A stretch of DNA of 39,124 nucleotides from a virus, in IMG/VR virus record IMGVR_UViG_3300042691_006067, positions 1 to 39,124 of that record, one strand, 5' to 3'. The notes beneath the pieces were generated by a model. That model did not search any database, had not been told where the DNA came from, and worked only from the letters and a program-made list of their open reading frames with translations. Positions 44 through 11,259 of the stretch are shown here, piece after piece (positions within the stretch are counted from its first letter, which is position 1; each line of letters starts with the position of its first letter). Both the position numbers and the translations under genes were made by a program.

Positions 44-466
44 TCACGGGTTTACCCTCACTCGCATGGCGTAGTCATCAATCGTGAGGTGTTCGACACC
101 CGTTGGCGTGTAGTGCTCAATCACTCCGTGTTTCTCCTGTCCTGTCTTGTATGAGTGGCAAGGCCCGCAAAGGCTTTGAAAGACGTTGTTGAGGAAAGCA
201 CCCTTGCCTACCTGACGCCACGGAAACAAGTGGTCAACGTGCTTGGCGGCTTCCACCCTTCCCCTGCTCAGGCATCCTTGGCACAAGGGCTGGATGCTCA
301 ACTGTCTTTGCCTGACGCTTCGCCATGCTGGTGTCTGGTAGATGCTGTCTGTTTCCCTTGGCGCGTAATTCCTCCCCCCGTGTTCATGGCAAAAGCTGTT
401 TAGCTTGGTCTTGGGGTTTGGGCATCCAAGGCTTTGGCACTTGGTGTACACGGGTGTTGACGGCAT
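44..466 (-). CDS. HNH endonuclease, terminase-associated
   Basis: 140-residue HNH nuclease. Zinc-binding cysteine pairs are visible at C62/C65 and C100/C103, the HNH core at H76-V-D-H79, the Asn at N93/N94 and the last His at H104 in the motif LCGPCH. A further N-terminal Cys cluster (C10, C15, C26) may bind a second zinc. On the circular map it is the last gene before the small terminase at 39005, with about 121 bp between, the arrangement of HK97 gp74. In that group HNH proteins work with the terminase in DNA packaging and cos cleavage. Role here is inferred from family and position. The ATG at 466 has only a weak ribosome binding site and follows the upstream stop by 3 bases. Confidence 0.88.
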   Translation of the reverse strand: MPSTPVYTKCQSLGCPNPKTKLNSFCHEHGGRNYAPRETDSIYQTPAWRSVRQRQLSIQPLCQGCLSRGRVEAAKHVDHLFPWRQVGKGAFLNNVFQSLCGPCHSYKTGQEKHGVIEHYTPTGVEHLTIDDYAMRVRVNP

Positions 467-469
467 AGG

Positions 470-1246
470 TCAATCCCAATGGTTGGCAAAGGCTTTGAGG
501 GGGTAAAACACAAGGCTGTTCCTGTATCCCCCTTCCTTGGTGGGCACGATAGGCGTCACCCCGTGGACGTTGCGCCATGCCGGGTAAACAAGCATTGAAT
601 TGTCGCGGCTGTCCATCGTGGCCCCGTAATCCGGCACAGTCGTGTTTCCGCCTCTGGCGTTGTGCTTCTTGGCGATGATGACGTTGGCGCATCCCTCAAG
701 GTTTCCAGCATCCCGGTGGAATGACGCGCTAATGTTGAAATTGCTGATGCTGCTGGTGAACAGTTCCCCAAAACGGAATTTTGGCGGGATTTTTTCTTCA
801 ATGATGGCTTTCTGTTTGTCGTATAGGGCAGGGGCAACGTCCTTGATTACCTTGGCTGATTCCTCAGCGGCCAACAGCATCGCTTTGATGAAAGTTGACG
901 CGGACGGGACTTGGTGAACGCTGCTGATTGACGGGTATGGCCGTTTCATGTGCGGCCTTGGTGGAACACTTCCCAAAATAGTGCTGAACTGTTGAACACG
1001 CTCGGTCAGCCCCTGTTCGCCGCTTGTGCGGTTCATCATGCTCTTGGGGACGCGCTCTGACAGGAACTCGGCATTGGCAACGTCAATCAGCTTGCGCAGT
1101 TTCTCAGGAATTTCCTTGAGGTAAAACCCTATTGGCTCCCCATTGACCGTGAACACCGTGTCTTCAGTAATGTTGGGCTGAATATCCCCGCACACGTCAC
1201 CCACTTTGACGCTGTGCTGGACTTGGAACAGTTCAACGTGTCTCAT
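470..1246 (-). CDS. TET/JBP-family Fe(II)/2-oxoglutarate dioxygenase (DNA base oxidation)
   Basis: 258-residue protein. The C-terminal half has the TET/JBP double-stranded beta-helix signature: FTSSISN, then H177-R-D179 as the HxD iron ligands, GNLEG, GGNTTVPDYG, the distal iron ligand H228 in VHGVTPI, and R242 (YRNS), the probable 2-oxoglutarate ligand. All catalytic residues are present. Known members oxidise the methyl group of thymine (JBP) or 5-methylcytosine (TET) in DNA. The start at 1246 was chosen because its ATG overlaps the upstream stop (ATGA) and has GAAGG 7 bases upstream; a reading frame open to 1312 lies inside the previous gene. The neighbours are a kinase, an amidotransferase and a helical protein of hypermodification type, so 5-hydroxymethyluracil is the likely product, although cytosine oxidation is not excluded. 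Confidence 0.85.
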   Translation of the reverse strand: MRHVELFQVQHSVKVGDVCGDIQPNITEDTVFTVNGEPIGFYLKEIPEKLRKLIDVANAEFLSERVPKSMMNRTSGEQGLTERVQQFSTILGSVPPRPHMKRPYPSISSVHQVPSASTFIKAMLLAAEESAKVIKDVAPALYDKQKAIIEEKIPPKFRFGELFTSSISNFNISASFHRDAGNLEGCANVIIAKKHNARGGNTTVPDYGATMDSRDNSMLVYPAWRNVHGVTPIVPTKEGGYRNSLVFYPLKAFANHWD

Positions 1247-2127
1247 GCTTTGCCTTCTTTCAGGAATTTCTGTTGGTAGTTGGTGCGCCGGAACTCGTAC
1301 AGGACTGACCAATCAACGCCCACAGGGACGTTTTTTTTCATTGCCTCAATTTCTGTCCTCATGCGCTCAATGTAATAGCCCACGTACCTCTTGCCCAGCT
1401 TGACCTTTTTGTAGGCGCACAGGGTTGTCTCGATGTTGAACAGGTTTTTGTGGCGAATCGCCATGCCGTTGATGCGTTGCTGAATGTCGCCAAACCCCTC
1501 ATCCAACGCGTCATAGTCTTGCCCCGTCAGTTCCTTGTCAACAAAATGCGTGAACAGGTCTTTGCGGCCCAAGGCCAAAGCCAGCCCGTTGCGGCAGCTT
1601 TCGGCTTCGCGCAGGGAAAGCGTGTGGGGAATCATTGGCGTGTCGGTCAGCACTGACACCAGTTCAAGGTAAATGAACATGGTGAACCGCCCGAAATAGT
1701 GGATGTTGTTCAGCCGCCCATAGGCTTTCACGTAGGTTTCCACAGGGTTATCCACACGAAACCCACCGAAATACTCTTGTTGGCTTGGCCCGACAATGTC
1801 CCGGTATGAGCGGAAGGCGTTGACGAACTCGTTGTTGCTTCGGACGCGGGCACGGTCTGTTTGGAAGACAAGGCGGTTGCGGTTGGCGTCCCACCAGCGT
1901 TGAAGCCGGTTCACGTCCACGTTTTCGTAGTCAGGAAATTCGTTGTAGATGTAGAACACCGTGGGTGCGCAGTAGCACGTCCCAAACAGGAATGCCAGCC
2001 AATATCGCTGTTCCATGCTCAGTTCATAGCGGTCTGCGATGTAGCTGAGGCAGTCATTTTGGGGGTCAATATCCCCCGCAAGACTGCTTGCCCGGTGAAA
2101 CGTCAGGAACTCGGTCACGCTGTCCAT
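1243..2127 (-). CDS. Helical 5-hmdU-kinase-associated / amino-acid:DNA transferase-like protein
   Basis: 294 residues, predicted mostly helical. Visible blocks are YWLAFLFGTCY (about 42-52), RWWDANR (77-83), FQTDRARVRSNNEF (about 87-100), YFGRFTMFIYLE and ESCRNGLALALGR. This pattern recalls the alpha-helical domain found beside or fused to 5-hydroxymethyl-deoxyuridine DNA kinases and predicted as an amino-acid:DNA transferase in phage hypermodification operons. I recognise the pattern rather than a catalytic motif, so the biochemical role (transfer of a nucleophile onto phosphorylated hmU) is inference. The ATG at 2127 has GAGGTG 7 bases upstream and overlaps the amidotransferase by 13 bases. 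It overlaps the dioxygenase by 4 bases, so the three are translationally coupled. Confidence 0.62.
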   Translation of the reverse strand: MDSVTEFLTFHRASSLAGDIDPQNDCLSYIADRYELSMEQRYWLAFLFGTCYCAPTVFYIYNEFPDYENVDVNRLQRWWDANRNRLVFQTDRARVRSNNEFVNAFRSYRDIVGPSQQEYFGGFRVDNPVETYVKAYGRLNNIHYFGRFTMFIYLELVSVLTDTPMIPHTLSLREAESCRNGLALALGRKDLFTHFVDKELTGQDYDALDEGFGDIQQRINGMAIRHKNLFNIETTLCAYKKVKLGKRYVGYYIERMRTEIEAMKKNVPVGVDWSVLYEFRRTNYQQKFLKEGKA

Positions 2128-2714
2128 TCGTGCACCTCATAGGGGTTCATCTGCGCGGGTTCCATCCGGCAACGCCTCAAAATGTCGGCAGTAGAACCAA
2201 TGAAGGTTGCACCGTAACGGTCGCCCCTGTACCCGGGCCTGCCCTCATTGCGAAAAAACGCAAGGCGGTGCGAACTGAGTGTCAGGCCACTGAACGTCAC
2301 TTTGGACTTGAGCAGCTTCATCCGGTCTTTGGCCTGAAGCATGATTTCACCGTCATTGTCGGAACTCATCTCAATGCGGTGCGCGGCTTGCATTTCCGCC
2401 TTGGTTCTCATGTCAATCACCCCGTTGAATACCAACCACTCATCGCCGTGGCGCAGGGGCTGGTTGTTGAGGTGGTTGCGGTAATCCCCGCTGGTGCTGT
2501 AACGGCAGTGACCAATCAGCATTGTGGGCGTCCTGATGCTGTCCAACAGGGGCTTCAGGGTGTTGCTCTTGTACTCAATCACCGTGCCGTCCTGAATGGC
2601 CGCATAGCCGTAGGCGTGCATGCCGCGAATCTTGGACTCAATGAAAAGCTGCTTGAGCGTGTCAATCGCTTCCTTGGACGGCTCAGGGCAAACAAAACCT
2701 ATGATGGCGCACAT
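2115..2714 (-). CDS. Class II glutamine amidotransferase
   Basis: 199-residue N-terminal nucleophile hydrolase. Cys2 directly follows Met1 (MCAIIGF), as required for the catalytic Cys after Met removal. Other family blocks are HCRYST at 69-74, NQP at 84-86, FNGVI at 96-100 (Asn-Gly oxyanion site) and SSDND at 117-121. The family frees ammonia from glutamine and usually delivers it to a synthase domain. None is fused here, so the partner must be another protein; the overlapping helical protein or kinase is the obvious candidate. ATG 2714 has GAGG 7 bases upstream and lies 16 bases inside the kinase gene. Inside a DNA-modification cassette it probably supplies nitrogen for the final base adduct; a host-directed metabolic role is the alternative. 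Confidence 0.8.
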   Translation of the reverse strand: MCAIIGFVCPEPSKEAIDTLKQLFIESKIRGMHAYGYAAIQDGTVIEYKSNTLKPLLDSIRTPTMLIGHCRYSTSGDYRNHLNNQPLRHGDEWLVFNGVIDMRTKAEMQAAHRIEMSSDNDGEIMLQAKDRMKLLKSKVTFSGLTLSSHRLAFFRNEGRPGYRGDRYGATFIGSTADILRRCRMEPAQMNPYEVHEWTA

Positions 2715-3157
2715 ATTTGCCTCAGTTCGGCTTGGACTTCCTCAATGCCACGGTTGTTGTCAACGATGTGCAGCTTGAAGGGGTAGTATTTTTTCATGGC
2801 GGGCAACTTCTTGATGAAGCTGTAATGCGCCTTGAATTTGTTGACGTTGTAATCGGCCGCACCACGGTGAATCGTCCGGGTCTTGACTGTCTCCGGCAGT
2901 GAGTGAAGCACGATGACGTGAAGGTCTGTCAGGCGCGTCAGCCGCACCATCATTGGCTCGGTCTGGAAAATGCACCCGTGAATCACCATGTCGGACTTGC
3001 TGGCCTTGACCTCATCCACAAGCTGTTGAACGCTTCGGATGGCATCAAGGCCCAGCTTGCCGCCGATGTAGTTGAACTGCGGGAAGGTCTGTTCAAGCAG
3101 GTTGGCTTGGGTGGTTTTCCCGCATCCGTGATACCCCACCAGATAAAAACACTTCAC
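2699..3157 (-). CDS. P-loop kinase, probable 5-hydroxymethyl-dU DNA kinase
   Basis: 152 residues with a clear Walker A motif GYHGCGKTT (GxxGxGKT at 8-15) straight after a short beta strand. A nucleotide/nucleoside-kinase-like layout follows: VIHGCIFQ near 58-65, VIVLHSLPETVKTR in the middle and Arg/Lys-rich lid residues. In TET/JBP and hmU phages, small kinases of this type phosphorylate 5-hydroxymethyluracil in DNA to create the leaving group for later substitution. That assignment rests on context; a nucleotide or polynucleotide kinase is possible. The start is GTG at 3157, and GTGA overlaps the ParB-like stop. Confidence 0.68.
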   Translation of the reverse strand: MKCFYLVGYHGCGKTTQANLLEQTFPQFNYIGGKLGLDAIRSVQQLVDEVKASKSDMVIHGCIFQTEPMMVRLTRLTDLHVIVLHSLPETVKTRTIHRGAADYNVNKFKAHYSFIKKLPAMKKYYPFKLHIVDNNRGIEEVQAELRQICAPS

Positions 3158-3774
3158 GCACTCAGCTTTTCTTTTTGACTGCGTAAATGATTGATAAGCA
3201 TCAGCCCAACATAGCCGCCCTGCTCACGCCACCACTTCACCAGTTCGTTGGCTTCCGGGTAATGCTCCGGCTCAAACTCAATCTGTATGGCCTTGCGGAC
3301 GCCCTTGCTCATCTCATCAAGCTGGTCGTCAATTTCCTCATCTTCCAACACGGAATAATCCACGTCAGCGGACTTGAGTTCAGACGGGTCAAAAGCCAAC
3401 AGGTCAATGTCAAAGCCCGCGTCACGCAGGTCTTGAATCTCCAACTCCAGCAGTTGTTCGTCCCAACCGCTGTTGAGGGCCAGCTTGTTGTCCGCAATGA
3501 TGTACGCCTTTTTTTGGCTGTCCGTCATATGGCCCAAGTCAATCGTGGGCACTTCGGCCAAGCCCAACAGGACTGACGCTTGCCAACGTCCGTGTCCGGC
3601 AATGATGCCGTTCTCACCGTCCAACAGGATGGGCTGTGTGAAGCCGAATTCCCTGATGGACGATGCAATCTGCGCCACCTGCGCGTCACTGTGAGTGCGG
3701 GCGTTGCGGGCGTATGGCAAAAGGGTGCTGACCTTGCGGTAGACGATTTTCAGCTTGCTGTCTTGTTTTGTCAT
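3154..3774 (-). CDS. ParB/sulfiredoxin-fold protein
   Basis: 206 residues. The ParB N-terminal domain spans about 8-110: LLPYARNARTHSDAQVAQIA, FTQPILLD, then the nucleotide-binding ENGIIAGHGRWQA (54-66) and the ADNKLALNSGW block (94-104). The acidic middle and a C-terminal domain ending in a KWWREQGGYVGL block have no known function to me. Free-standing phage ParB proteins occur beside DNA methylases and other base-modifying enzymes, where DNA recognition or nuclease activity is assumed. The start was set at ATG 3774, 11 bases after the upstream stop, with GGAA upstream; the open frame extends to 3861 inside the neighbour. First gene of the modification cassette. Confidence 0.83.
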   Translation of the reverse strand: MTKQDSKLKIVYRKVSTLLPYARNARTHSDAQVAQIASSIREFGFTQPILLDGENGIIAGHGRWQASVLLGLAEVPTIDLGHMTDSQKKAYIIADNKLALNSGWDEQLLELEIQDLRDAGFDIDLLAFDPSELKSADVDYSVLEDEEIDDQLDEMSKGVRKAIQIEFEPEHYPEANELVKWWREQGGYVGLMLINHLRSQKEKLSA

Positions 3775-3785
3775 GGTGGTTCCGT

Positions 3786-4196
3786 TCAGGAAAGTTCGCG
3801 CAGTTGGTAAATGGTCTGGCTGACCAACAGGCGGATTTCGTCCACCACGTTTTGCAGCCAAGAATCAGCCGGGAAGGTCGGCATTTGTCGTGTCTCGTCA
3901 ATGGACTGAGCCACCATCAGGAAGTAATCCAGCGGCTCACCCTGCGGGAACTCATAGCCCTTGGGGAACAGGGCCGGGTCAACTTTGCCGTATTTGCCCT
4001 GAAACCCCTCAGCAAAGGCGTCCACCAGCGGAACAATCTCCGTGTAGAACGATTCCAGTGCCTCATGGTCGCTTCGGCTTGGCGTCAGCCAATGCTCAAG
4101 CTGGGCCGTTGTGCGGCAGTGAAGCAAGTCAACCACCATCTGAGTGCCAGCCCCCATGCTGTTCGACTCTTGAACCCTGCCAATGAACTTTGCCAT
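3786..4196 (-). CDS. DUF5856-like ferritin-fold phage protein
   Basis: 136 residues. The pattern LLHCRTTAQLEHWLTPSRSDHEALESFY...VPLVDAFAEGFQGKYG matches the DUF5856 family seen in T4-like and other phages, which has a ferritin/Dps-like four-helix appearance with conserved His and Glu on the helices. The function is not established. It lies 11 bp upstream of the ParB-like gene and 12 bp downstream of the Ref-type nuclease gene, so it is in the same operon. Metal or DNA binding is suggested only by the fold resemblance. Confidence 0.62.
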   Translation of the reverse strand: MAKFIGRVQESNSMGAGTQMVVDLLHCRTTAQLEHWLTPSRSDHEALESFYTEIVPLVDAFAEGFQGKYGKVDPALFPKGYEFPQGEPLDYFLMVAQSIDETRQMPTFPADSWLQNVVDEIRLLVSQTIYQLRELS

Positions 4197-8009: not shown

Positions 8010-8174
8010 ATGAAATACGTCTTTGTTGTCATCGCCAAAAGCGGCTTCATTTTCGGTGTGTACGCCAACCGGGCTGACGCACAAACTGTTTTCCACTCGC
8101 TGGCGGACATTCACCCTGACCTGCGTCTGTCGCAAGAACCCTTGTTGCAAAAAGCCGCTCATTACATGCCCTGA
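8010..8174 (+). CDS. Small early protein, 54 residues
   Basis: MKYVFVVIAKSGFIFGVYAN at the N terminus, then a RADAQTVFHSLAD helix and an acidic-to-basic tail ending in HYMP. ATG 8010 has AAAGGA 6 bases upstream and follows the previous stop by 11 bases. The alternation KYVFVVIAKSGFIFGVYANRADAQ looks like a short beta-hairpin plus helix, similar in style to many phage early proteins. No function recognised. It is short, but the ribosome binding site and tight spacing make it credible. Confidence 0.65.
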   Translation: MKYVFVVIAKSGFIFGVYANRADAQTVFHSLADIHPDLRLSQEPLLQKAAHYMP

Positions 8175-8184
8175 TGACCCGGCT

Positions 8185-8207
8185 CACAGCCTCTTACGGG
8201 GGCTGTG
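8185..8207 (+). other. Intergenic stem-loop
   Basis: CACAGCC (8185-8191) and GGCTGTG (8201-8207) form a perfect 7-bp stem around a 9-base loop. No T-run follows, so it is not a standard intrinsic terminator. It lies between the stop at 8174 and the ribosome binding site of the DUF932 gene at 8267, and may stabilise or process the message. Confidence 0.5.
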
Positions 8208-8266
8208 GGACGCGCCAACCGGAACGTCACAACCCGCCCGCAAGGGACTTTTCAAAGGAAATTCAA

Positions 8267-9262
8267 ATGGCTCACTTAATCGAAACCAACACCAACACCG
8301 GCAAGTCTGAAATTGCTTTCATTGGCAACGTGCCTTGGCACGGTCTTGGTCAAGCACTGTCCCCCAACGCCCCCATTGAGGTCTGGAAAACTGAGGCCGG
8401 TTTGGACTGGCAAGCTGAGGTGGCCCGCGCCATGTTCATCCCTGAGTTGGGTGGCGTGGCTCACCCCGTCCCCGGCCGCAACGTGGTGTACCGCAGTGAC
8501 ACGCAAGCCCCCTTGGGCGTGGTGACTGACCGCTATCGCATCCACCAGCCCGGTGAAATCTTGGACTTCTTCAACACCTTGGTGCAGTCTGCCGGGTTCA
8601 GCCTTGAGGTTGCTGGCGCAATCAGTGGCGGCAAGCGCATCTGGGCACTTGCCAACGTCAACCGTGAGGCTTGCGTGTTGGGCGATGACGCTGTGCGCGG
8701 CTACCTGCTTCTGTCCACCAGCTTTGACGGCTCAACCGCAACCGTGGGCCAGTTCACCAGCGTCCGCGTTGTGTGCAACAACACCCTGTCAATGGCTGAC
8801 CGTGAATCAGCCCCATCCCGCGTGTCTATCACTCACGGTGCGCGTTTTGACGCAAGCCTGATGCGTGACAAGTTGGGTCTGGTCGTTGGCGGCTTTGACG
8901 GCATGATGGACAACTACCGCAAGCTGGCCCGCCAAGGCGTCAGCACCGCGTTTGTCAAAGAGTACCTGACCACCCTGTTCCCTCAGACCAAGCAACTAGT
9001 CAAGGTTCCCGGTGTTGAGGTCAAGCAAGAGGTTTGGGCTGATTCCCGGGCATACAAACAAGTGCTGGCCCTGTTTGACGGCAAGGGCATGGGCGCAGAC
9101 CTGCCCGGCACTCACGGAACCCGTTGGGGCTTGCTCAACGCCATCACGCAGTTTGTTGACCACGAACGCGGTCACAACACCGACACCCGGATGACCAACG
9201 CTTGGTTTGGTGATGGCAACCGCCTCAAGTCACAAGCCGAAACCCTGCTGCTGTCCGCCTGA
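8267..9262 (+). CDS. DUF932 phage/plasmid-like protein
   Basis: 331 residues of the DUF932 family. Typical blocks are PWHGLGQ near residue 23, YRSDTQAPLGVVTDRYRIHQ, GFSLEVAGAISGGKRIWALA, SFDGSTATVGQFTSVRVVCNNTLSMA and the C-terminal GTRWGLLNAITQFVDH. Family members are common on phages and plasmids beside recombination or replication genes, without a proven activity. ATG 8267 has AAAGGAAA upstream; an open extension to 8174 lacks a ribosome binding site. It is the largest gene of the early block and may cooperate with the ERF and YqaJ proteins further downstream. Confidence 0.9.
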   Translation: MAHLIETNTNTGKSEIAFIGNVPWHGLGQALSPNAPIEVWKTEAGLDWQAEVARAMFIPELGGVAHPVPGRNVVYRSDTQAPLGVVTDRYRIHQPGEILDFFNTLVQSAGFSLEVAGAISGGKRIWALANVNREACVLGDDAVRGYLLLSTSFDGSTATVGQFTSVRVVCNNTLSMADRESAPSRVSITHGARFDASLMRDKLGLVVGGFDGMMDNYRKLARQGVSTAFVKEYLTTLFPQTKQLVKVPGVEVKQEVWADSRAYKQVLALFDGKGMGADLPGTHGTRWGLLNAITQFVDHERGHNTDTRMTNAWFGDGNRLKSQAETLLLSA

Positions 9263-9271
9263 ACTTAACCC

Positions 9272-9287
9272 GCCCCCTCCGGGGGGC
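9272..9287 (+). other. GC-rich stem-loop before a small membrane gene
   Basis: GCCCCC (9272-9277) pairs with GGGGGC (9282-9287) around the tetraloop TCCG. The ribosome binding site AAAGGA of the gene at 9301 follows within a few bases. No T-run is present, so an mRNA stability or processing element is more likely than a terminator. Confidence 0.55.
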
Positions 9288-9300
9288 TGAAAGGAACCCA

Positions 9301-9480
9301 ATGAACATCCTCAAACGCTTTGCTGTCTGGCTCATTCAAGGTCTGTTGAGTGCCGCCCTGCTCATCCTTTTCGTTGTCTTGGTTGCTGAGTGGGCCGCTG
9401 GCTGTGGCGAATCCTATGTTGACGCCAAAGGCAAGACCCACGTTGGTGAATGCATCTTCCTTGACCGGGGGAACAAATGA
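9301..9480 (+). CDS. Small single-pass membrane protein
   Basis: 59 residues: MNILKRFAVWLIQGLLSAAL then a hydrophobic run to about residue 31, giving one transmembrane helix, followed by a 28-residue tail with two cysteines (C35 and C51). The positive N terminus suggests the N terminus is inside. ATG 9301 follows AAAGGAACCCA, and its stop overlaps the next start (ATGA). Function unknown; superinfection or membrane-directed early proteins have this form, but no specific family is evident. Confidence 0.7.
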   Translation: MNILKRFAVWLIQGLLSAALLILFVVLVAEWAAGCGESYVDAKGKTHVGECIFLDRGNK

Positions 9481-9734
9481 CTGAGTTCAGCACACACGTC
9501 TGCGGCATCCCTTGCATTGTCCGGGTGCTGGAGTGGGAAGCCTTTGTGCCTATGTCCACACGCGGCCATCCCGACAACTGGATGCCAGAGGAAGGGGGCT
9601 ATGGCTCTTGGGAAATTCTGGACACCCGGGGACGCCCCGCCCCTTGGCTTGAACGCAAGATGAAGCAATCTGACATAGACGCCCTGTCATCTGAGGTCTA
9701 TGACCAGATGGAAAACAACCGTGACGATTTTTAA
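9477..9734 (+). CDS. Early protein of unknown function
   Basis: 85 residues, MTEFSTHVCGIPCIVRVLEW at the N terminus, followed by a Gly/Pro/Trp-rich central part (GHPDNWMPEEGGYGSWEILD). It looks like a small globular phage protein with no family that I can name. ATGA overlap with the membrane-protein gene couples its translation. Its last codons share a 17-bp direct repeat with the start of the ERF gene. Confidence 0.75.
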   Translation: MTEFSTHVCGIPCIVRVLEWEAFVPMSTRGHPDNWMPEEGGYGSWEILDTRGRPAPWLERKMKQSDIDALSSEVYDQMENNRDDF

Positions 9735-9773
9735 CCCTGAAGGAAAAACCATGACTGAAAACAACCGTGACGA
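9711..9773 (+). repeat. 17-bp direct repeat flanking the ERF start
   Basis: An identical 17-mer beginning GAAAACAACCGTGACG occurs at 9711-9727 and 9757-9773, 46 bp apart. The first copy encodes the end of the upstream protein (ENNRDD) and the second the start of ERF (ENNRDE) in the matching frame. A local duplication that reused one coding end as the next start is the simplest explanation. Confidence 0.8.
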
Positions 9774-10347
9774 ACAACCAGCAGACCCCATGCTGTTTGC
9801 CGCCTTCCTCCGCGCCCAACGCAAGTTTGGCAAAGCCCTCAAGACCAGCGACAACCCGCACTTCAAAAGCCGGTACGCAGACCTTGCTGAGTGCGTTGAG
9901 GCCGTGATTGACGCCCTGCACAGTGAGGGCTTTGCCTTCACGCAGTTCACAGAACGCGATGACAAGGGCGCATTTGTCCGCACCGTGCTGCTTCACGAAT
10001 CAGGCGAACTGCTGACCCTTGGTGAGTTTTGGGTTCCGTCCCCCAAGCATGACCCGCAAGGCTTTGGCAGTGCGCTGACGTATGCCCGCAGGTACAGCCT
10101 GATGAGCGCAATGGGCATGGCCCCGCAAGACGATGACGGAAGCATTGCCAGCAAGCCCAAGGCATACGCAGTGGACGAAACCGTGATGGCGGATTTGCTG
10201 TCTAGCATTGGCGCGTCCAGTGATGAGAAAAGTCTGCTCAAGGCTTACACGGACGCCTTCAAAGCAACCAAGGGTGACGCTAACGCGCAGAAACGCATCA
10301 TTGCCGCCAAAGACGCTAAGAAAACTGAGTTGGGGGTGTCCAAATGA
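9751..10347 (+). CDS. erf: ERF-family single-strand annealing protein
   Basis: 198 residues. The ERF signature is clear: NPHFKSRYADL (35-45), then HDPQGFGSALTYARRYSL (100-117) and MGMAPQDDDG. ERF proteins, known from P22, anneal complementary single strands and form rings, and work with an exonuclease in phage recombination, repair and concatemer formation. The YqaJ-type exonuclease at 10639 is the natural partner. ATG 9751 has GAAGGAAAA upstream; the earlier in-frame start at 9700 lies in the preceding gene. The C-terminal third is Ala/Lys-rich, less conserved and probably for partner contacts. Confidence 0.9.
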   Translation: MTENNRDEQPADPMLFAAFLRAQRKFGKALKTSDNPHFKSRYADLAECVEAVIDALHSEGFAFTQFTERDDKGAFVRTVLLHESGELLTLGEFWVPSPKHDPQGFGSALTYARRYSLMSAMGMAPQDDDGSIASKPKAYAVDETVMADLLSSIGASSDEKSLLKAYTDAFKATKGDANAQKRIIAAKDAKKTELGVSK

Positions 10348-10655
10348 TTAAAACCATCAATGCTTTTGTCGTTGCAACCCAAGACCCTTGGGATAAAAAG
10401 CCTGTGTTCATGCCTCTTGGGTTTGACCCTCAGAAAATGGGAATGGACCACTATGTTGTTGTGGCTCAGACGTCATTTGAGGTTCACATTGCGGATGACT
10501 TTGACATGCGCCCGCATCAGGTCGCCGCTTTGGAAAAGAAAAAACGCGATGCTCAAGCCGCGTTTGCGGCCAAAGTCAAAGAAATTGATGACCAAATCAA
10601 CAGCCTGTTGGCTATCGGAACAGCAAAGGTGGTGGACGATGGAACAGCGAACTGA
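10344..10655 (+). CDS. Phage protein between ERF and exonuclease
   Basis: 103 residues. The N-terminal half is beta-rich (INAFVVATQDPWDKKPVFMP); the C-terminal half (about 62-92) is a charged coiled coil with many Lys/Asp/Glu (ALEKKKRDAQAAFAAKVKEI). ATGA overlap with ERF and a 17-bp overlap with the exonuclease gene place it inside the recombination operon. No function recognised; an accessory or dimerising factor for the recombination proteins is a plausible guess. Confidence 0.76.
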   Translation: MIKTINAFVVATQDPWDKKPVFMPLGFDPQKMGMDHYVVVAQTSFEVHIADDFDMRPHQVAALEKKKRDAQAAFAAKVKEIDDQINSLLAIGTAKVVDDGTAN

Positions 10656-11259
10656 CGAATGGTTCAACGCCCGCTTGGGCAAGGTCACTGCGTCCCGCGT
10701 TACGGACGTGGTGGCCCGCACCAAGACAGGGTATGCCGCAAGCCGCGCAGACTACATGGCCCAACTCATTGTTGAGCGCATGACGCAACAGGCCGCAAAG
10801 TCATTCAGCAACGCCGCAATGCAGTGGGGCACTGACACTGAGCCACTGGCCCGCGCCGCGTATGAGGCTGAACGTCAGGTAATGGTCGATGAGGAAGGGT
10901 TTGTTGACCATCCCGAAATCGCCAACGCTGGCGCATCGCCCGATGGCCTTGTAGGGTCGGATGGGCTGGTTGAAATTAAGTGCCCGAACACGTCAACGCA
11001 CATCGAAACGCTGCTGACCCGGGCTGTTCCCAAAAAGTACCTTGACCAGATGATGTGGCAGATGATTTGCACAGGCCGTCAGTGGTGTGACTTCGCCAGT
11101 TATGACCCCCGGATGCCTGACCATCTTCAACTGTTCATCAAGCGCATCCCGTTTGACGCGGAATACGCCAACACGCTCAACACGGAAGTGTCCAAGTTCC
11201 TTGAGGAAGTGGACGCCACCATTGAAAAACTCAACAACCTGAAAGGCAACCATGAGTAA
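10639..11259 (+). CDS. YqaJ-family phage recombination exonuclease
   Basis: 206 residues. Starts MEQRTDEWFNARLGKVTASR, the YqaJ N-terminal block. The PD-(D/E)xK nuclease site is GTDTEPLARAAYE (E68), ASPDGLV (D102) and LVEIKCP (E112, K114), then YLDQMMWQM. It is a lambda Exo-like 5'-3' exonuclease that makes single-stranded tails for annealing by ERF. ATG 10639 was chosen because homology starts exactly there; the frame is open further upstream but inside the previous gene. Length matches the family. Confidence 0.92.
   Translation: MEQRTDEWFNARLGKVTASRVTDVVARTKTGYAASRADYMAQLIVERMTQQAAKSFSNAAMQWGTDTEPLARAAYEAERQVMVDEEGFVDHPEIANAGASPDGLVGSDGLVEIKCPNTSTHIETLLTRAVPKKYLDQMMWQMICTGRQWCDFASYDPRMPDHLQLFIKRIPFDAEYANTLNTEVSKFLEEVDATIEKLNNLKGNHE

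Follow-up and report, generated by a model that had tools for sequence, protein, structure and literature searches.

A five-gene cassette near the terminase genes

The DNA analysed here (the window) is a 39,124-base IMG/VR virus record, IMGVR_UViG_3300042691_006067. It carries a 41-base direct terminal repeat, and for that reason the genome is probably complete. Five overlapping genes on the minus strand, running from position 3774 to 470, encode a ParB-like protein, a P-loop kinase, a class II glutamine amidotransferase (GAT), an amino acid:DNA transferase (AADT) and a TET/JBP dioxygenase (Table 1), successive genes overlapping by 4, 16, 13 and 4 bases. The original prediction, made from the sequence without database searches, had read them as a cassette that hypermodifies thymine by way of 5-hydroxymethyluracil (hmU). 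All five genes lie where it placed them, and Pfam matches and dN/dS agree with this gene set. The HMM searches it had proposed were run on the longest reading of every frame with curated cut-offs applied, and gave matches above cut-off for four of the five genes (ParB_N, 3.2e-7; GATase_6, 4.6e-8; ADDT, 3.6e-19; Tet_JBP, 5.5e-10), the kinase being the exception. All five genes are retained in the nearest relatives (L003-L005) at 91-99% identity, with dN/dS values of 0.01-0.13 that rule out chance open reading frames; the cassette genes are under purifying selection. The cassette is real, coherent and of a published type, and its new element is the consistent partnership of AADT with GAT.

Table 1. 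Positions of the cassette genes and their two neighbours in the window.
Feature	Position	Strand	Remarks
ParB-like protein	3154..3774	(-)	ATG start; 206 aa; ParB N-terminal domain; without fused methylase
Small P-loop kinase, predicted hmU-in-DNA kinase	2699..3157	(-)	GTG start; 152 aa; Walker A
Stand-alone class II glutamine amidotransferase (GAT), predicted nitrogen donor	2115..2714	(-)	199 aa; GATase_6
Amino acid:DNA transferase (AADT)	1243..2127	(-)	294 aa; Pfam ADDT PF18724
TET/JBP 2-oxoglutarate/Fe(II) dioxygenase, predicted thymine hydroxylase	470..1246	(-)	ATG start; 258 aa; Tet_JBP
HNH endonuclease, neighbour outside the counted pathway	44..466	(-)	HNH 8.4e-7; phrog_144; 3 bases after TET
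DUF5856 protein, neighbour and possible cassette member	3786..4196	(-)	PF19174 4.1e-15; phrog_858; 11 bases before ParB

The ADDT match of the AADT (69.9 bits against a cut-off of 26.2) covers residues 19-242. The best solved match of its structure model (pLDDT 92.4) is 8z2m, the 5-phosphomethyl-dU (5-PmdU) glycinyltransferase gp46 of Pseudomonas phage PaMx11, which VIA aligned over 250 residues with Z 18.3, rmsd 3.1 and 13% identity. The second fold is that of 8-oxoguanine DNA glycosylase (Z 9.6), and weak VIA matches with Z of about 2-3 were disregarded. PaMx11 gp46 surfaced by fold search only, as a sequence search against solved structures returned nothing significant (best E 0.6). Eleven predicted viral structures match the model at E <=0.001, and three of them are named amino acid:DNA transferase domain proteins. 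In sequence, the PaMx11 enzyme matches M6 gp51, and a protein nearly identical to M6 gp51 has a solved structure as well (25qc). A region of the AADT round E233, T234 and C237 is conserved. The model thus points to a DNA-glycosylase-like protein of a family predicted to act on phosphorylated hmU in DNA. The protein had earlier been described as helical and hmU-associated; AADT is the sharper identity.

The Walker A motif of the kinase reads GYHGCGKT, with G8, G11, G13 and K14 invariant in 14 aligned rows, and its model (pLDDT 88.5) has an adenylate/gluconate kinase fold (Z 15.6, 148 residues, rmsd 2.4). Its Pfam matches are P-loop families only, all below their cut-offs (AAA_18, 2.2e-4), and PF18751 (Ploopntkinase) is absent from them at E up to 1. 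By hhalign it reaches 85% with the kinase of phage Tonitrus, but only over 32 columns round the P-loop, and 0.7% with that of RPN242 (Ackermannviridae), to which no sequence homology was seen. The Walker A kinase of the original prediction is therefore borne out in P-loop and fold, without a match at threshold to the named hmU-kinase families.

The GAT profile matches PurF, GlmS and asparagine synthetase, and residues C2, R71, N97, G98 and D121 are invariant in 23 rows; from what is known of GlmS and PurF, we take C2 to be catalytic, the Arg and Asp to bind glutamine and the Asn-Gly pair to form the oxyanion site. The protein has no fused synthase domain, and AADT is its constant neighbour. 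The dioxygenase scores 39.1 bits against a cut-off of 34.9, and its family profile matches human TET2. Its metal and 2-oxoglutarate residues H177, D179, H228 and R242 are invariant in 24 rows that include cyanophage and actinophage TETs, and with the HxD...H...R motif kept it is intact, as had been claimed. In the ParB-like protein, a PADLOC MTase_II match is confined to residues 8-150, corresponding to profile positions 8-154 of 436.

One HNH gene separates the cassette from the genes for the small and large terminase subunits and the portal, which lie at the opposite end of the window, across the join. The DUF5856 gene varies in position among relatives, upstream or downstream of the cassette. 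Further along, at 8174-11259 on the plus strand, a DUF932 protein, an ERF-type annealing protein and a YqaJ-type exonuclease make up a phage recombination module.

Near-constant pairing of GAT and AADT

The pairing was followed in two sets whose contigs are partly common, one of 84 AADT loci (after dropping six second copies of the same contigs) and one of 80 GAT loci out of 170 relatives found. GAT adjoins AADT in 83 of the 84 AADT loci, the exception (L138) beginning inside AADT, and a small Walker-A gene lies nearby in 82, the exceptions (L044 and L097) being cut at contig ends. Conversely, AADT adjoins GAT in 78 of the 80 GAT loci, and the other two end right after GAT. TET is found in 75 of these 80 loci, the kinase in 78 and ParB, as the first gene, in 74. 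GAT and AADT are thus near-constantly together, inseparable in the clade of the window.

This holds across four gene orders. The first is that of the window (ParB-kinase-GAT-AADT-TET), and the second, seen in six loci, adds a GNAT-like gene between kinase and GAT. In the third, ParB-TET-GAT-AADT-kinase, a GNAT-like gene usually precedes AADT and the TET is mostly about 30% identical; the kinases of this order resemble that of Tonitrus (98% probability) and are only remotely like the window's (90%). The fourth is ParB-GAT-AADT-kinase-TET. The pairing therefore persists when the TET differs (about 30% identity), when the kinase belongs to another group and when the genes are reordered: TET and kinase are exchangeable, while GAT and AADT stay together.

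GNAT-like genes, counted anywhere in the locus, occur in 44 of the 84 AADT loci, 6 having one kind and 38 the other. The original prediction had noted the lack of accessory PLP or radical-SAM enzymes, which fits the window as far as its genes were scanned, but these relatives do have a GNAT-like gene. Weak, short tblastn matches in the window to a TAGT (E 0.003, 58 residues) and to a Bacteroidales radical-SAM protein (E 0.008, 41 residues) were disregarded.

Three loci from two Bacteroidales metagenome-assembled genomes also have GAT beside AADT, and no TET was found in them. In two (L156, 5881-11127; L154, 6587-11171) the order is ParB-GAT-AADT-kinase-GNAT-radical SAM, where Pfam was used to test the kinase, GNAT and radical-SAM-like genes of L156 and the kinase of L154. 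No TET was seen in the locus flanks, and PF12851 had no match in either genome, though control genomes also gave none. Such loci may draw on another source of the reactive methyl group or have a different start.

In named phages with an AADT the partner was not found. By tblastn, GAT had no match in the examined stretches of RPN242, VPALA, M6, CaiB, Tonitrus and LilMcDreamy, nor in that of Margaery, which lacks an AADT match, and 197 records with a GAT match included none from Delftia, Gordonia, Rhodococcus or Mycobacterium. The GATase_6 profile matched 0 of nine named phages, a weak result by itself as the profile missed 3 of 8 tblastn-positive genomes (G010, G015, G016). In all, the seven named AADT phages that were tested, phiW-14 included, yielded no GAT. 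The partnership is apparently undescribed so far: our literature searches met no description of it, although Iyer 2013, Lee 2018/2022, Wen 2024 and the 2021 PNAS phage-TET paper could contain one.

Proposed route from thymine to an amine in DNA

The window and 17 relative contigs of at least 30 kb were scanned for PF00303, the ThyA-type thymidylate synthase (TS), and PF00145, the cytosine-C5 methylase. PF00303, in a search that did not extend to ThyX, was found in 0 of these 18, and PF00145 had no match in the window, in 16 of the 17 relative contigs or in any of 10 named phages. PF00303 is present in phages M6, phiW-14, RPN242 and VPALA and in 0 of 6 TET phages, one of which, Margaery, has an annotated ThyX, a family outside the TS search. 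Tet_JBP is found in 0 of the 4 TS-type phages and in all 6 TET phages, where it scores below the curated cut-off but at E 2.7e-5 or better. ADDT, in a scan that left out MED4-117, is present in M6, phiW-14, RPN242, VPALA, Tonitrus, CaiB and LilMcDreamy and not in MED4-184 or Margaery. Seven named AADT phages therefore divide into four with TS and no TET (the first four) and three with TET and no TS (the last three). In its simplest reading, this distribution suggests that TET replaces the nucleotide-level hydroxymethylase and oxidises thymine within DNA. Because the window genome has no match to a TS-type hydroxymethylase or a C5-methylase, TET most likely makes hmU in DNA, and the fold match of AADT to a 5-PmdU glycinyltransferase ties the pathway to thymine. 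Both results favour the sequence put forward in the original prediction, from thymine to hmU, phosphorylated hmU and a nitrogen-bearing substituent.

We regard it as quite improbable that TET acts instead on host-made 5-methylcytosine (5mC), the later genes decorating 5-hydroxymethylcytosine rather than hmU. The window TET profile does match TET2, and animal TETs act on 5mC; the HRD..N stretch of TET2 is retained as H177-R-D179-A-G-N182. In addition, a relative of the TAGT type described below (G005), with a TET 72% identical to that of the window, carries a C5-methylase, so that TETs of this clade might act on 5mC. This methylase (L147, G005:31678-32355) lies about 3 kb upstream of ParB. The window, however, has no PF00145 match, its AADT resembles a 5-PmdU enzyme, and other AADTs occur in phages that also have a TS homologue. 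The genome is almost devoid of CCWGG (1 of 76 expected), a frequent site of 5mC in hosts. A weak cue is that the base-contacting His1904 of TET2 aligns with Leu in the window TET.

On balance, and with modest confidence, we lean towards a cassette that modifies thymine in already polymerised phage DNA, ammonia from GAT and the action of AADT yielding 5-aminomethyl-dU (5-NmdU). TET would hydroxylate the 5-methyl group of thymine to give hmU, whose hydroxyl the kinase would phosphorylate to 5-PmdU. AADT would then bind 5-PmdU in DNA and swap its phosphate for an amino group, while GAT, hydrolysing glutamine beside it, would pass on the nitrogen as ammonia. The simplest product would be 5-NmdU, and ParB would probably load or direct the complex on DNA. 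We infer, rather than observe, each of these reactions, as well as thymine as the substrate, ammonia as the donor, the product and the part played by ParB.

As a bare glutaminase without a synthase domain, GAT needs a partner that holds an electrophile. AADT is the candidate because the two are near-constantly paired and because its substrate, judged by fold, is such an electrophile. The ammonia route is favoured since none of the seven named AADT phages has a detectable GAT and since 44 of 84 loci have a GNAT-like gene whose product could take an amine as substrate; genes of this kind acylate amines. 5-NmdU itself is reportedly a hypermodified DNA base, going by the title of the 2024 work of Wen et al.; there it would arise through a glycine adduct.

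A bolder version, which we put forward tentatively and at rather less than even confidence, is that GAT and AADT act as a pair through which ammonia is channelled; together they would displace the phosphate on 5-PmdU and make 5-NmdU straight from glutamine, without an amino-acid intermediate. A base within double-stranded DNA would be aminated at the expense of glutamine, a phage TET that hydroxylates thymine having started the pathway, and the GNAT-like gene would cap the amine. If true, it would provide a short post-replicative way of giving thymine in DNA an amine handle, requiring four catalytic genes (TET, kinase, GAT and AADT; about 2.7 kb) and useful for labelling. It would also bear on the choice of thymine over 5mC by phage TETs, and makes it testable whether TETs of bacterial viruses can be thymine hydroxylases.

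It is unlikely, in our view, that GAT does not feed AADT at all, a free amino acid being put on 5-PmdU by AADT as in M6 and ViI and GAT either converting the carboxylate of the adduct to a carboxamide or raising local glutamate. The solved relative of AADT is a glycinyltransferase. A class II GAT normally works with a partner that is ATP-dependent or activated, and the cassette does contain a P-loop protein. Amidation, however, requires an activation step of its own and the cassette encodes one kinase only, while the abundance of glutamate in cells speaks against a local supply. Moreover, GAT was not found in the TS-type AADT phages tested, in which amino-acid adducts have reportedly been described by Lee et al.

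Besides the C5-methylase of G005, several points weigh against the proposed route. The closest structural relative of AADT, the PaMx11 enzyme, is named for its use of glycine and not of ammonia. Foldseek relates the AADT model to 8z2m with a modest E of 2.6e-3 (TM 0.59/0.60), and it has no PDB match at <=0.001. Structure prediction, by which the original prediction wanted its helical and kinase proteins compared with known hmU enzymes, does relate AADT to them (Z 18.3), whereas the kinase model appears kin to known hmU kinases at the level of fold only. In a tree of 38 AADTs one branch separates the 31 that have a GAT partner from the others and puts them next to the AADTs of RPN242 and VPALA, but this branch has a support of only 80/78, is not starred and stands among long branches. 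Finally, in phage relatives the GNAT-like genes score under the Pfam cut-offs.

Exchanged decorators, restriction sites and known systems

Among 80 TET relatives examined (of 195 found), 30 carry AADT with GAT. For the remaining 50, the decorator was taken as the largest gene in the gap between ParB and TET and clustered, the gap being readable in 47 (ParB was unreadable in L006, L013 and L081). An FkbM-type methyltransferase cluster (PF05050, tested in L014) fills 29 of the 47 readable gaps, and a family that includes TAGT glycosyltransferases fills 17 (PF20691 above cut-off in L075; L016, of the same cluster, without Pfam match); the gap of L041 holds several genes, one of them a TAGT. In the relatives examined, ParB-TET is therefore a base on which decorators are exchanged. 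Cassettes with TAGT or FkbM have, like the window, ParB upstream and a TET (50-75% identical) directly downstream of the decorator, but a sugar or methyl transferase takes the place of kinase, GAT and AADT. Their logic is modular, a ParB-TET unit with interchangeable decorators.

Cultured phages show further arrangements. Prochlorococcus phages MED4-184 and MED4-117 (L143 8959-9744, corresponding to NC_020847.1 17129-17914, and L144 8959-9744) have ParB-FkbM methyltransferase-TET before the terminase. Their TET is annotated as queuine tRNA-ribosyltransferase, which looks like a labelling error that PHROG 6059 shares. Microbacterium phage Margaery (L152, 1-2161) has ParB-TET-Ploopntkinase3 without an AADT match, possibly with phosphorylated hmU as its end product. 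In Mycobacterium phage LilMcDreamy (L146, 1-3759) the order is ParB-TET-AADT followed by an aspartyl/asparaginyl hydroxylase-like gene; no kinase is annotated alongside, an exception to the rule that AADT comes with a kinase.

It had been suggested that the modification protects against restriction. We counted a motif as avoided when observed/expected was <=0.15, with a maximal-order Markov expectation >=12. By this measure 13 of 65 testable restriction-type palindromes are avoided in the window, namely CCWGG (1/76 observed/expected), CGWCG (0/43), GATC (4/105), GGWCC (2/59) and nine 6-mers; of the non-palindromic controls, none of 240 4-mers and none of 478 sampled 6-mers is avoided. Because these palindromes are nearly absent, the modification has not relieved restriction pressure, and the suggestion is weakened, protection against restriction being not clear-cut. 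Phages of this type appear to be under strong Type II restriction and to depend on site avoidance even so; their modification may be recent, incomplete, confined to certain contexts or directed at other defences. Eight relatives avoid 4 to 14 motifs each, whatever their decorator, and have sets of their own (GCWGC occurs 0-2 times against 34-69 expected in seven of the eight counted).

One explanation, which we hold to be on the unlikely side, is that the modification is sparse and local, perhaps with ParB guiding it to the neighbourhood of the packaging site, or serves against non-Type II defences rather than as a genome-wide shield. It would account for the contrast between avoided palindromes and controls, and the cassette does lie one HNH gene from the terminase genes. 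The shorter stretches of three of four TS-type phages have 0-1 avoided palindromes (RPN242, 1/46; VPALA, 0/50; phiW-14, 0/41), but that of M6, a phage with a published hypermodification, likewise avoids 8/53. Also against this explanation, the avoidance may predate the cassette, and it is seen in all eight relatives whatever their decorator. A sparse and local modification is compatible with the chemistry proposed above.

Phage-borne class II GATase domains are also found in podophages LUZ24, tf and phiEco32, the three named GATase phages inspected among 197 and 130 matching records, and two cassette GATs are about 25-33% identical to their best matches among named phages. There, unlike in the window, the domain lies within a protein of >500 aa in an amidoligase/RimK-type operon, and the stretch inspected has neither an AADT nor a TET annotated. 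PaMx11 gp46/PUGT (PDB 8z2m, 8z2n) shares the whole-length fold of the window AADT but differs in sequence and, by its name, in using glycine as donor; we know of no GAT partner for it.

Common to the window and to phages of the M6/phiW-14/ViI type are the AADT family and a DNA kinase for hmU, which in the window is predicted. Unlike the window, phages of this type have additional enzymes that sculpt the base further, among them radical-SAM or PLP enzymes. M6, phiW-14, RPN242 and VPALA differ from the window in having a TS homologue and no TET, and GAT was not found in them. A type II restriction study of hmdU-derived phages supports the hmU-kinase route and has hmU made at the nucleotide level by the TS homologue in phages of the M6/phiW-14/ViI type (PMC6449724).

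The closest systems are those of Gordonia phage CaiB and Rhodococcus phage Tonitrus, which likewise combine ParB, TET/JBP, an ADDT-family AADT and a P-loop kinase in adjoining short genes near the terminase, without a TS homologue. The last gene is annotated as an oxidoreductase in CaiB (gp5) and as hypothetical in Tonitrus (gp8), with weak NAD-binding-type matches; by tblastn against the window the two reach best E values of 2.6 and 0.4. The original prediction had considered the set little described, a view that is weakened: the literature already reports ParB-TET-pyrophosphorylase-kinase cassettes ahead of the terminase in CaiB and in Tonitrus, and that of Tonitrus is called a "five-gene thymine hypermodification system" (PMC11955845). 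What sets the window apart is its gene order, against ParB-TET-AADT-kinase in these two phages, a kinase that is not matched by the Pfam family of theirs (Ploopntkinase3), and, above all, the presence of GAT in place of their last gene.

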